DNA from: Anaerotignum propionicum DSM 1682 | GTDB lineage: Bacteria > Bacillota > Clostridia > Lachnospirales > Anaerotignaceae | Assembly: GCF_001561955.1 (NCBI RefSeq) | Contig: NZ_CP014223.1 | Coordinates: 310,001-374,000 of the forward strand | Direction: 5' to 3' | Length of the DNA: 64,000 bases | In this document: positions 37,341 to 42,400 of the stretch, piece by piece | How the letters are laid out: each line of letters begins with the position of its first letter | Position numbering within the stretch: position 1 is the first letter of the stretch | Position numbers and translations under genes: made by a program | The notes under the pieces: model-generated | Told to the model about the DNA's origin: nothing | What the model saw: the letters and a program-made list of their open reading frames with translations, nothing else | Database searches by the model: none

Positions 37341-37805
37341 TTGAAATGTCCTTTTTGCAGCTATGCAGATACGAAGGTGATTGATTCAAGAGCGCAGGAT
37401 GACAATGCCGTCATTCGTCGCCGCCGTCTTTGTGAAAATTGCGGGAAACGCTTTACTACCTACGAAAGAATTGATATGATCCCCATTACTGTGATAAAAC
37501 GGGATGGCACAAGGGAGATATTTGATAAGACAAAACTAATGGGCGGCATCATGAAATCCTGTAACAAGCGCCCGGTTACGGCAAAACAGATTGAGAATTT
37601 GGTTGATGATGTGGAAAACACTTTGATTGGCAGTGGCGAGAGAGAAGTGGACAGCAAGGTGATTGGTGGTATGGTTATGGATCGCCTGAAGGAATTAGAT
37701 GAAGTGGCCTATGTCCGTTTTGCATCCGTTTATCGTCAATTTAAGGATATTAATACATTTATCGATGAGCTTGAGAAAATGCTTAGTGAAAAGCGTGGAG
37801 AGTAA
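37341..37805 (+). CDS. nrdR: Transcriptional repressor NrdR
   Basis: NrdR senses ATP/dATP with an ATP cone and represses ribonucleotide reductase genes by binding paired NrdR boxes. The 154-residue protein begins with the zinc ribbon CPFC...CENCGKRFTTYERID, followed by an ATP cone (VIKRDGTREIFDKTKLMGGIMKSC). TTG 37341 follows AAGGGGGGGA at the right distance; the longer frame upstream has no homology. The location close to nrdDG is unusual but fits its target. Confidence 0.95.
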   Translation: MKCPFCSYADTKVIDSRAQDDNAVIRRRRLCENCGKRFTTYERIDMIPITVIKRDGTREIFDKTKLMGGIMKSCNKRPVTAKQIENLVDDVENTLIGSGEREVDSKVIGGMVMDRLKELDEVAYVRFASVYRQFKDINTFIDELEKMLSEKRGE

Positions 37806-37835
37806 AGTTTCCCATCAATGATTTGTGCAGTTAAG

Positions 37836-37870
37836 CCCCCTTTGAGTATATGCTCAGAGGGTACTTTTTT
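37836..37870 (+). terminator. Intrinsic terminator after nrdR
   Basis: CCCTTTGAG (37838-37846) pairs with CTCAGAGGG (37853-37861) with one G-U pair, followed by TAC and six T. Confidence 0.65.
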
Positions 37871-37904
37871 GTAATTCTTCTATTTGAATTTTTGGAGGTT
37901 TGTT

Positions 37905-38177
37905 ATGACACAAAGAATAAAGGCTTTGTTTGCATGGACTGCTCAGGGAGAAGAATCAGCGAAGCTGATTGGCGTTAGATATTTAGAAGCAGGTCTTGCA
38001 GTTACATTTCATGGGGAAGCTCAAAAAGACGAGCTGATTTTCCTTGGAGAAAAGAAGGATATGACCCATGTTTTATATTTTATAGACCATGAAAGGCTGC
38101 TTTTGATCAGTCTTGCAGATGAGATGGGCGGCTTTACCGTGGAGGTTTTGGTGGAGGATTTAATACTTCCTTGCTAA
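37905..38177 (+). CDS. Small protein of unknown function
   Basis: A 90-residue soluble protein (start MTQRIKALFAWTAQGEESAK) with alternating strands and an acidic C terminus ending VEVLVEDLILPC. It has GGAGG six bases before ATG 37905, so it looks genuinely translated. I recognise no family. It is the only gene between the nrdR terminator and the Cys/Gly-rich microprotein gene, 135 bases away on the same strand. Confidence 0.6.
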   Translation: MTQRIKALFAWTAQGEESAKLIGVRYLEAGLAVTFHGEAQKDELIFLGEKKDMTHVLYFIDHERLLLISLADEMGGFTVEVLVEDLILPC

Positions 38178-38312
38178 AGCTTGTTTCAAATTTCCCGAAT
38201 TATGAAAGAATAAAAAAGAAAAAAGATTAAATATAGACAGGCAATATTTTACAAAATACCTCATAGGATAAAAATGTAAGCAAAACATATTTACTTAAGG
38301 AGGTATTATAGT

Positions 38313-38537
38313 ATGAGTGGATTTGGTTGTGGTTTTGGCGGCGATAGTTCTTGTTTGTGGATCTTAATTTTGTTGTGCTGCTGTGGTAACGGTTTTGGTG
38401 GTAGTAGTTGTGGCGGCAGCTGTGGCGGCGGCTGTGGCGGCGAGTCCTCTTGGTTATGGATCCTCATTCTTCTTTTCTGCTGTGGCGGCAATAGTTGTGG
38501 CTGTGGAAATCAGATTGGGAACAACTGCGGATGCTAA
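38313..38537 (+). CDS. Cys/Gly-rich microprotein with duplicated hydrophobic core
   Basis: The 74-residue product holds 14 cysteines and about 24 glycines. Two near-copies of one unit are visible: SSCLWILILLCCC at residues 12-24 and SSWLWILILLFCC at 45-57, separated by a glycine-serine-cysteine spacer and followed by another Cys/Gly tail. Each core is hydrophobic enough to insert in a membrane. The layout resembles the short Gly-rich YjcZ-type sporulation membrane proteins but with a duplication and extra cysteines. AAGGAGG precedes the ATG. It could be a spore-coat or membrane microprotein; that is inference. Confidence 0.7.
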   Translation: MSGFGCGFGGDSSCLWILILLCCCGNGFGGSSCGGSCGGGCGGESSWLWILILLFCCGGNSCGCGNQIGNNCGC

Positions 38538-38855
38538 TTTAGTCTGCGAATAAGATCTACAGGAAGTACTGAAACTGAATCAAGATTTTATGATACAGCG
38601 GAGTCATTAGCATGAAAATTGGTATTTAGGAAATATATAATTGCTTTTTGAAACGCAAATAGTTGTTGATTCCGCTGTATTCACGAAAAAGGCTTAATGT
38701 AGTGAGTCTTTTTCACAAGTATGCGGAGAATATCCGCATCCTTTGGCTTTCCCGATTTTTGGGGAAGCCTTTCTTTATTTGCGAACGAAAAGGAAGGCAT
38801 CCCGGCCATCAATCCTTTACAATAGAAATATGAAATCGTGTTTTTGAAAGGGGTT
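38538..38855 (+). other. Hairpin-rich intergenic region after the microprotein gene
   Basis: No gene is seen. Four inverted repeats follow one another: ATACAGCGGAGTCA/TGATTCCGCTGTAT (38593-38606 with 38667-38680), GAAAAAG/CTTTTTC (38684-38713), ATGCGGA/TCCGCAT (38721-38727 with 38733-38739), and GGCTTTCCC/GGGGAAGCC (38745-38753 with 38761-38769) followed by TTTCTTT. The last is terminator-like. Confidence 0.55.
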
Positions 38856-39443
38856 ATGGCTGTGCTGGAGCGAAATTTAAAAAAAGATGAGCGTTGTAAG
38901 AAATTAATTGAAGAGTGTAAATCATATTTTATAGAGCGTGCCTATCAATTGGAAAACCAATTTTATAGTGCTTTTTACGTACAATGTGCAGAGAGTACCG
39001 CTGCTGATGGATATGAGGTCTTTTTGGAGACACCTATGGAACATAATTATTTCAGGGCGAACCTTGCCAAATTGGATGAAACGGCGATGATGCGTTTTTA
39101 TAAGCTTGCCGCCATACATCATACCATTCGTATGGTCAGAAGGCGGAAAAAGGAGATGCTGTGGGAAAATATTAAGGAAGGATTGTTTAAGGTATACGAT
39201 TTGACAGAGAATGAGAAGGAAATGGTTGACATTCTGCAAAGGTGTGCCTTTCTTTATCAGACAGGCTTTCAAGAGCTGTTCATAAAAACAACGGCAAGAT
39301 ATATTTTCGGACACAAGGTTCTTTCTGCATTTTCGTTCGCTTTTATCGGGAACTTCTGGTATAATTCCTATAGTAGTTTTATGGGCTCGTTTGTTGGATA
39401 TGTACCCTTTCGTGTGCGTATGGAGCGAGCCATGGGAGAATAA
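38856..39443 (+). CDS. Protein of unknown function upstream of addA
   Basis: A 196-residue, mostly helical, basic protein (KKDERCKKLIEECKSYFIERAYQLENQF...IHHTIRMVRRRKKEM). It has no signal peptide or clear membrane helix except a hydrophobic patch near FSFAFIGNFWYNSYSSFMGSF. I do not recognise the family. ATG 38856 or GTG 38862 are both possible after AAAGGGG. It ends 19 bases before addA, so the two are probably co-transcribed, where one would usually expect addB. Confidence 0.6.
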   Translation: MAVLERNLKKDERCKKLIEECKSYFIERAYQLENQFYSAFYVQCAESTAADGYEVFLETPMEHNYFRANLAKLDETAMMRFYKLAAIHHTIRMVRRRKKEMLWENIKEGLFKVYDLTENEKEMVDILQRCAFLYQTGFQELFIKTTARYIFGHKVLSAFSFAFIGNFWYNSYSSFMGSFVGYVPFRVRMERAMGE

Positions 39444-39462
39444 TTTTGGAGGATGAAGACCC

Positions 39463-42400
39463 ATGGGGGAAAACAGATGGACGGAGGAGCAATTACAGGC
39501 CATTGAAGCAAGGGGTTGTGACTTATTGGTTTCAGCGGCAGCGGGAAGCGGGAAAACCGCAGTTTTGGTTGAACGTATTATCCGACGGATTACCGTGGAT
39601 CAACCACCGATGGATATTGACCGACTATTGGTAGTAACCTTTACAAAGGCAGCGGCATCGGAGATGAGCCAAAGGATTGGAGGGGCTATAGCAAAAAAGC
39701 TGGAGCAAGAGCCCAAAAATCTGCATTTGCAAAATCAGCTTACTTTACTTGCCCGTGCGGATATTAAAACTATCCATGCCTTCTGTCTGCAAACCATCCG
39801 TGAGTATTATCATCTTTTAGACATTGACCCCGCGGTCAGAACAGGAGACCCTGGGGAAATCAAATTATTACAGCAGGAAGTGCTGGAGGATTATTTTGAG
39901 GAACTTTATGAAAAACAGGATGAAGTTTTTTTTCAGCTGTTAGAAACCTTTGGCGAAGAGACGAAGGATAGCAGGCTAAAGGAGTTACTATTACAGCTTT
40001 ATAATTTTGCCCAAGGGTACCCTGACCCTGTGAAGCTTCTTTTGGAAATGGCAGAACAATTTCATCTTAAGGATGGGGAAACGGTGGATACCTGTAAGTG
40101 GATGCCCATCATTCGGGAAAGCATCAAAGGCGGTGTGGCTTTTGCCAGAGAGCTATTGGAGCGGGCAATGGGTCTTGCGGCTTCAACATCAGGCTTTGAG
40201 GCTTATTTGGAATGCATGGAAAAAGAAGCACAAGGGTTAGAGCAATTAGAAGAAGCTTTGCCATTTGGATACGGCAAGTGGCGTATGGCTTTCTTGCAAA
40301 CGGAATTTCAAAGGCTGCCCGGTTACCGAGGAGAAGAAAAGGAGCTGGCTGAGGATATCAAAAGTTTGCGTAACGAAGCAAAGGACATACGCAGTAAGCT
40401 GGGTGAGACCTATTTTTCCTTTAGCGAAGAAATGCAGGTAGAGCTTCTGGGTGCCTTATATCCTGTGGCGAAGGGTTTGGCGGTGCTGGTGGATGGATTC
40501 TTACAGCGCTTTTTAGATTCAAAAAAAGAGAAGCTCGTGATCGATTTTCATGATTATGAGCATTTTTGCCTGCAAATTTTAGTGGAAAAAGGTAGCACAG
40601 TGGGGCATCTCATTCCTACAGCTGCGGCATTGGAAATACAAAAACGCTATGATGAAATTATGATAGATGAATATCAAGATAGCAATATGGTTCAGGAAAT
40701 GATACTGGCGGCGGTTTCTGGAGAAAGTGGGGGTAAAAACAACCGTTTTATGGTGGGGGATGTGAAACAAAGCATTTATCGGTTTCGATTGGCTATGCCC
40801 CAGCTGTTTAATGAAAAATATCATACATATCCCTTAGAAGAAGGGGGCAAATGCAGAAAGATTATTCTCTCTAAAAACTTTAGAAGCCGAAAAAACATTT
40901 TGGATGGGGCTAATTTCTTGTTTCGCCAGCTTATGTCTAAGGATTTTGGTGATGTGGAATATAATGATGAAGCAGCTTTATATGCAGGAGCTGTTTTTCC
41001 TGATACACAAATTTCTCATGGAGGAGAGAACGAAGTGATTTTGGTGGAGAGCCAAAGTCTTTTGGAAGAGGAAGGCATGGGGGAATTGGATGAGTTAAAC
41101 CGACGCCAATTGGAAGCCATGGCAATTGCCGATAAAATTAAAACAATGATGGCAGAGGGATTTTGTGTTGTGGATAAGGAAAGCGGAGCCTATCGTCCTT
41201 TAGAGTTCAGAGATATTTCCATATTGCTTAGAAGCATGAAAAACTGGGGAAGCATCCTTGACGATGTTTTCGGACAAGCAGGGCTTCCTTATTATGCAGA
41301 AACAGCTGAAGGGTACTATGATGTACCCGAGGTGGATACAGTTTTGAATCTCCTTCGCCTTTTGGATAATCCAAGACAGGATATTCCCCTGATTTCTGTG
41401 CTTCATTCCCCGTTATATGGTCTTTCTGGGGATGAATTGATGCAAATGCGCCTGAATGGTGGAAATGGGTTGTTTTTTGACTGCATACAGGGGTATTTGC
41501 ATCAAGGTGACGATTCTGAATTAAAAGAAAAGCTCCAAGGTTTCATTGGGGATTTAGCAAAATGGCGTGGGCGGGTGAAGGAGTTGACCCTCCATGAGCT
41601 TTTGCATTATCTTTATGAAGAAAGTGGCTACTATGATTACGTGGGAATGACAGCGGGAGGCAGTTTGCGTCAGGCCAATCTTCGGTTGCTGTTGGAAAAA
41701 GCGGAGCAATTTGAGCAGGGAAGTCACAAGGGGCTATTTTTCTTTATCCGTTATGTGGAGGATATGAAAACGGCGGAAGCGGAATCGGCATCGGCAAAGC
41801 TCCAAAGTGAAGGGGAAAACCTGATTCGTGTCATGACCATTCATAAGAGCAAGGGCTTAGAATTCCCTGTTGTTTTTGTGGCGGATTGTGGCAAGCAATT
41901 CAATGAAATGGATGTTAGGGCGGCGGTGCTTACCCATCAGGAGTGGGGGTTTGGCATGGATTATAAGGATTTGCAGCGCAGAGCAGTTTACCGTACCCTT
42001 TCTAAAACAGCATTGGCAGAGGTCATTCGATTAGAGAACCTAGCGGAGGAACTTCGGGTGCTTTATGTTGCCCTAACCAGAGCCAAGGAGAAGCTCATCT
42101 TGACAGGGACGGTGAAGGATTTAGAAAAAGCTGTGAAAAAGTGGGCTGATGGGGCAGAAGGTAAGAAAGACCGCCTTTCTGTATTTCGATTAAGACGAAG
42201 CAAAAGCTATTTGGATTGGATGATGCCTGCCTTGTTGCGTCATCCTGATGCAAAATGGCTGCGTGAACAATTTGGTGTTTCCCATGGAGTGAAGGTATTT
42301 CTGGAGGAGCCTTCTGTATGGTCTTTTCAACGTAAAACCAGAGGGGATATTCTTTTGCAAATGGAGGAGAAAAAAGCGCAGTCAGAAGAACAGGAGAACT

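Follow-up and report, generated by a model that had tools for sequence, protein, structure and literature searches.

What does a 74-residue, cysteine-rich open reading frame with two hydrophobic cores contribute to the bacterium that carries it? We addressed this question in the window, that is, the whole 64,000-nucleotide stretch of DNA analysed, which covers positions 310001-374000 of a genome that forms one contig of 3,120,417 bases. The reading frame (P0001) translates as MSGFGCGFGGDSSCLWILILLCCCGNGFGGSSCGGSCGGGCGGESSWLWILILLFCCGGNSCGCGNQIGNNCGC*, comprising 74 aa plus the stop, of which 14 are cysteines, and includes two repeated units, SSCLWILILLCCCG and SSWLWILILLFCCG, of the form SS(C/W)LWILILL(C/F)CC; the translation agrees in all these respects with a preliminary description of the same DNA. 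Twelve of 14 residues are identical between the two units, compared with only 29 of the 42 underlying bases, and the 12 residues common to both use the same codon in six cases and a different codon in the other six. This disparity between protein and DNA points to an old duplication kept by selection, and not to a recent tandem repeat. In composition, the protein is devoid of Lys, Arg, His, Pro and Ala, and for want of Lys and Arg it would escape standard trypsin-based proteomics. Structure prediction using AlphaFold with 14 sequences returned short helices at residues 13-24 and 46-58 with a mean pLDDT of 46, a model too poor for use. The features of the locus are collected in Table 1.

Table 1. 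Features of the microprotein gene, with positions counted from the first base of the window.
Feature	Position	Strand	Basis
Microprotein open reading frame, two hydrophobic cores	38313..38537	+	Translation, purifying selection, family searches
Core 1, residues 14-24, CLWILILLCCC	38352..38384	+	Translation, core statistics, alignment
Core 2, residues 47-57, WLWILILLFCC	38451..38483	+	Translation, core statistics, alignment
Shine-Dalgarno AAGGAGGT, 8 nt 5' of ATG	38297..38304	+	Sequence; kept in most family orthologs
TGTAA just 3' of the -10	38275..38279	+	26/29 Anaerotignaceae, 21/40 others, 1/124 controls
Mother-cell sigma (SigE/SigK) type -10 element CATAGGATA	38262..38270	+	Upstream comparison, CATANNNT pattern
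SigE-type -35-like AATATT, 13 nt 5' of CATA	38243..38248	+	18/29 Anaerotignaceae, 0/124 controls
AGACAGGC, putative SpoIIID-type site	38235..38242	+	28/29 Anaerotignaceae, 2/40 other Lachnospirales, 1/124 controls
Terminator-like hairpins downstream	38721..38769	+	3 found vs 0.6 in shuffles; consensus only

Conservation and anatomy of the family

The frame, for which an untranslated state had been considered, is a real protein under purifying selection: dN/dS lay between 0.03 and 0.28 in 13 of 14 ortholog pairs, which were hand-picked among 18 sequences and in several cases had dS above 1, dS being saturated in the fourteenth. With the window protein as sole query, relatives were detected at E ≤ 0.01 in 46 of 98 related genomes, including all eight of the genus (its own genome counted), and the relatives named fall in Anaerotignum, Tyzzerella, Lachnoclostridium and Eisenbergiella and among unnamed Lachnospiraceae. 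A 25-row profile (A1, E ≤ 0.001) extended this range to 100 of 294 Lachnospirales genomes and 57 of 145 genera of the order, so that the repeated unit, for which a search in sporulating Clostridia had been suggested, proved to be conserved and its occurrence not limited to one strain. Across the class, the same profile matched in 26 of 393 genomes, ten of which belong to Lachnospirales; the other 16 gave E-values from 2.8e-6 to 8.7e-4.

For inspection, we fetched 40 class- and order-level profile matches, mainly the stronger ones. Identical protein sequences were counted once and 76 distinct members were kept, seven of them from outside Lachnospirales; one locus at a contig end (L029) yielded no reading frame by motif. 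Core and cysteine statistics refer to the 69 members within Lachnospirales, with the seven outside matches left out. All 69 display two hydrophobic cores, a count that describes an inspected set and no random draw, the searches and motifs used to find members demanding at least one such core. Including the adjoining cysteines, core length is 11 residues in 103 of 138 cores and 12 in another 24 (127/138 at 11-12), and without cysteines the cores mostly span 7-9 residues. Leu, Ile and Trp make up 93% of core residues and Val or Ala hardly occur (76 members, including the seven from outside the order).

In 65 of 69 members core 1 is followed within three residues by a cysteine, as is core 2 in 68 of 69, and cysteine is the C-terminal residue in 61 of 69. 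The number of cysteines ranges from 3 to 20; at least eight are present in 67 of the 69, and the two remaining members (L090 and L093) have three each. Members are 58-96 aa long.

Beyond the order, two of the seven matches (L097 and L098) are single-core, cysteine-rich relatives of only 36 and 45 aa, whose genes are preceded by AC-N15-17-CATANNNT, a SigK-type arrangement. The other five have two cores, and three of them carry one cysteine only. The existence of single-core relatives with a SigK-type upstream region suggests that the two-core form may have arisen by doubling of a peptide of this kind, which would then represent a possible ancestral form.

Upstream elements and promoter type

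The -10 pattern CATANNNT, whose letters we in part assume to be those recognized by SigE and SigK, was found within 110 nt upstream of 29/29 Anaerotignaceae and 37/40 other Lachnospirales members (66/69 in total), compared with shuffle means of 5.2 and 7.2, respectively (50 shuffles), and with 19 of 124 control genes, all of these counts being descriptive because the promoter patterns were composed after the upstream sequences had been viewed. The 124 control regions come from the loci under study, and orthologous genes are among them. The check for a SigE/SigK promoter that had been proposed for this gene was thus positive. Outside Lachnospirales, the pattern precedes three of the seven matches and is absent from the other four.

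The regions upstream of the Anaerotignaceae genes have a common layout, AGACAGGCAA..CATAGGATA....TGTAA, which occurs once in the own genome, the reversed control pattern giving no occurrence. The putative SpoIIID-type site fits RRACARNY, which we take to be the SpoIIID consensus; the combination AGACAGGC-N14-22-CATANNNT has one further match in the own genome, located within a long coding frame judged by eye to be mreB-like and taken as chance. A sigma-70 scan was uninformative, with three sites against 1.7 expected.

The -35 region divides the family further. The SigK-type arrangement AC-N15-17-CATANNNT precedes 29 of 32 Lachnospiraceae-type members (family f6 and small families) versus 4 of 124 controls, and the SigE-type arrangement AATATT-N11-14-CATANNNT precedes 18 of 29 Anaerotignaceae members (f1), five of eight members of family f12 and none of the 124 controls. 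Since AATATT is missing from 11 of the 29 Anaerotignaceae, where no clear -35 is seen, and the AC-type -35 occurs in none of the Anaerotignaceae, the promoter narrows the sigma factor to a class and no further. Passages of PMC3789822 describe the SigE and SigK -10 elements of Clostridioides difficile as very similar and the -35 as different (ATA vs AC), and the Fig. 4 legend of PMC517825 gives an element spacing of 12 ± 1 for SigE and 15 ± 1 for SigK in Bacillus subtilis. By these definitions (PMC3789822, PMC517825), the window promoter, AATATT-N13-CATAGGATA, has the architecture of the SigE/SigK regulons; judged from sequence, it is SigE-like, and most Lachnospiraceae-type members are SigK-like.

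Separately, the motif CAAGC recurs between the -35 AC and the -10 in several Lachnospiraceae members (upstream of L061-L092, uncounted), where it is perhaps a regulator site.

Co-occurrence with sporulation genes

Using TIGR02836 as the spoIVA model, 215 of the 294 Lachnospirales genomes, drawn with the same settings, were positive. Among carriers of the microprotein gene, spoIVA was present in 98 of 100, compared with 117 of 194 non-carriers (Fisher p 1.1e-14, ancestry ignored), and by genus in 57 of 57 carrier genera compared with 54 of 88 others. In the two carriers without a spoIVA match (G048 and G220), the assembly consists of 360 and 370 contigs, respectively, and congeners of each have both genes. 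The association is weak when the whole class is sampled, with spoIVA in 24 of 26 carriers versus 287 of 393 genomes overall (p 0.013, ancestry ignored); ten of these 26 carriers are Lachnospirales genomes counted again, and the two without spoIVA are G389 and G462. Outside Lachnospirales, the 14 of 16 carriers lie close to the background, 275 of 370 by our own count, and are no evidence by themselves. Many spore-formers lack the microprotein gene, which is therefore not essential to sporulation.

The own genome encodes spoIVA, together with spoIIID and sigE over their cut-offs; an adjoining spoIIGA match lies below its cut-off. A second sigma factor has SigK as its best match and passes the broad NF004471 model, as does the sigE protein, and falls below the stricter TIGR02846. 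By eye, CATAATAATA lies ~50 nt 5' of the spoIVA ATG and fits CATANNNTA, and no exact CATANNNT was seen close 5' of the spoIIID start.

In the same genome, outside the window, sigK is apparently split (G000:C1 ~2236016-2272260; L105:1435-2151, L111:16205). Its frame departs after GISRSY, adjoining an opposite-strand serine recombinase frame (XisF/CcrA-like, below cut-offs), and a matching C-terminus lies ~35.6 kb downstream. This arrangement looks like a skin-type intervening element.

Collectively, the link to sporulation drawn in the preliminary description is supported by the co-occurrence with spoIVA and by the mother-cell-type promoter. The microprotein is very likely a sporulation protein and, to judge from its upstream region, likely expressed in the mother cell, and its relatives constitute a real, widespread and uncurated family of probable sporulation microproteins.

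Proposed role

We lean towards a structural microprotein that the mother cell would make for the outer spore layers, with a putative place in the outer forespore membrane, the coat or the exosporium. The conserved promoter architecture and the co-occurrence with spoIVA suggest that the single gene would be transcribed during sporulation by RNA polymerase carrying a sigma factor of the mother cell, of the SigE type in the window and of the SigK type in Lachnospiraceae. The Shine-Dalgarno sequence is very strong and would be expected to give a high output. The Leu/Ile/Trp cores might then enter the outer membrane of the forespore to a shallow depth or pack together, joined by linkers whose Gly/Asn/Ser/Cys composition suggests flexibility. 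By analogy with cysteine-rich, self-assembling spore proteins, the cysteines behind each core, together with the one at the C-terminus, could finally form disulfides between neighbouring molecules, producing an insoluble layer.

The odds of such a cross-linked structural role, which rests on that analogy, appear evenly balanced. Constant cores beside a variable number of cysteines speak for a primary function that resides in the cores and is reinforced by the cysteines. Cross-linking cannot be universal in any case, as L090 and L093 have three cysteines and three of the matches outside Lachnospirales have one.

Alternative explanations

The alternative that survives best regards the family as a clostridial counterpart of the YjcZ/SpoVM-type sporulation membrane peptides, with the cores serving as anchors on the forespore membrane surface and the cysteines being secondary. 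Shape, size and mother-cell promoter fit this explanation, and so do the core geometry, which is far steadier than the number of cysteines, the single-core relatives outside Lachnospirales with their SigK-type upstream sequences and the listing of B. subtilis yjcZ in the SigK regulon (PMC517825). The family libraries speak against it. TIGR01732, the YjcZ model, gave no match at E ≤ 10 in P0001, in the 25 profile members or in the own genome; in a control, it gave some match in eight of 14 genomes (B. subtilis among the eight) and exceeded its cut-off in one of the 14. YjcZ family membership is accordingly rejected, and what stands of the YjcZ-like resemblance noted earlier is the shape.

Other curated families are equally unmatched: P0001 has no match in Pfam (E ≤ 1) or NCBIfam (E ≤ 10), and the 25 profile members gave only stray ones, with best E-values of 0.0036 in Pfam (PF10939, one member) and 0.13 in NCBIfam. 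The most widely shared stray Pfam match was Pmp3 (11 of 25 members, best E 0.47), and for five divergent relatives the best NCBIfam E-value was 1.6. In addition, a usual membrane-spanning helix has ~20 residues, compared with which the cores of 11-12 residues are short, and the eight or more cysteines of nearly all members (67/69) also tell against it. We therefore regard this explanation as possible but doubtful.

Metal binding by a thiolate cluster, also raised in the preliminary description, draws on the 14 cysteines per 74 residues of the window protein. Across the 69 members, however, cysteine number varies between the extremes given above, cysteine spacing is not fixed and the invariant columns of the family alignment are dominated by the cores, so that this function is not favoured and appears very unlikely.

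The genomic neighbourhood bears on two further possibilities. Between 26 and 52 kb of the window, 22 open reading frames of at least 150 aa were delimited, 21 of which were compared with Pfam, the antisense frame 38922-39503 being left out. They comprise nrdD and an adjoining Fer4_12 protein that is presumably its activase, a two-component system, a glycosyltransferase, nrdR, an AddA-like helicase-nuclease, an EamA permease (43149), an M23 peptidase, TetR, a LonB-like protease, GNAT and TsaD-like proteins, a SpoU methylase, a PocR/MCP protein, a DUF2812 protein and unnamed frames; a smaller ylmC/YmxH gene lies in the same interval. The gene nrdR is a neighbour in 21 of the 29 Anaerotignaceae-type loci (L002-L030, ~3 kb or less each). 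Six window genes were sought in nine other loci (L035-L043) and none was found (0/9), which indicates that the microprotein gene has no single fixed location.

The genes directly flanking it, 37905-38177 and 38862-39443, are conserved in Anaerotignaceae loci and have no significant match in Pfam or NCBIfam.

A small, Cys- and Gly-rich protein might be the precursor of a RiPP or bacteriocin with a Cys-rich core. The absence of a maturase or exporter nearby, remarked on earlier, holds in the RiPP sense among the 21 scanned frames, where neither these nor a dedicated protease were found and the nearest candidates are the EamA permease and the Fer4_12 protein; the mother-cell promoter and the conserved hydrophobic cores also tell against a precursor, which we consider highly improbable. 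A type I toxin-like peptide would likewise be small and hydrophobic, yet Rfam has no match in 37800-38900, the two-core, cysteine-rich layout is unsuited to such a toxin, and the recurrent place beside nrdR and the sporulation-type promoter are a misfit, leaving this identity scarcely credible. That the frame is a spurious one over GGC-rich DNA, whose low complexity leaves other frames partly open as well, can practically be dismissed in view of the dN/dS values, the conserved Shine-Dalgarno and promoter and the spread over 57 of 145 genera.

Overall, the parts of the earlier interpretation that stand are conservation, the sporulation link and the promoter; YjcZ membership and metal binding do not.

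Comparison with known systems

Lachnospiraceae are important gut spore formers. A single-gene family with a sporulation-type promoter and no curated name, carried by 100 of 294 Lachnospirales genomes, is a candidate spore-coating component, and it illustrates how small cysteine-rich proteins slip past family libraries. An open-access literature search found no description of the family, and a limited search found no account of a protein of such design on Lachnospiraceae spores.

YjcZ (TIGR01732, tiny_TM_bacill) resembles the microprotein in being a very small hydrophobic sporulation protein. It is Gly-rich, and its model is a single stretch of 26 positions, whereas the microprotein has two cores of 11-12 residues and many cysteines.

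For the structural role favoured here, the nearest parallels are the Cys-rich proteins of spore formers CsxA, ExsY and CotY (PMC7333573) and CdeC/CdeM (PMC6101409), for which a shared principle, disulfide-locked layers formed by proteins of unrelated sequence, has been proposed. Passages of PMC7333573 describe CsxA, ExsY and CotY as sequence-unrelated proteins that self-assemble into disulfide-linked spore layers, and it is proposed there that the same applies to many Cys-rich proteins in spore formers; a term search of its main text returned no occurrence of Lachnospir-, Anaerotignum or hydrophobic. The high cysteine content of such layer proteins is found here too, at least eight residues being present in 67 of 69 presumed sporulation products. 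The family differs in that no curated family joins it to these proteins and in its length of 58-96 aa, its two short cores and an assembly that is putative.

Chaplins and hydrophobins also combine hydrophobic segments with cysteines. These small surface proteins assemble at interfaces and act on aerial hyphae, whereas the microprotein would belong to the endospore mother cell. A bolder and decidedly less probable version of the favoured role would make the family a large, undescribed group of endospore surfactant-like proteins, whose duplicated Leu/Ile/Trp cores would self-assemble on the surface of the forespore much as chaplins or hydrophobins do, with cysteines then locking the assembly. 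If so, the outer layer of Lachnospirales spores would be hydrophobic or sealed by disulfides, where other spore formers have Cys-rich lattices. Small Cys-rich spore proteins are a known kind, and the duplicated short-core design is new within the libraries and literature searched.
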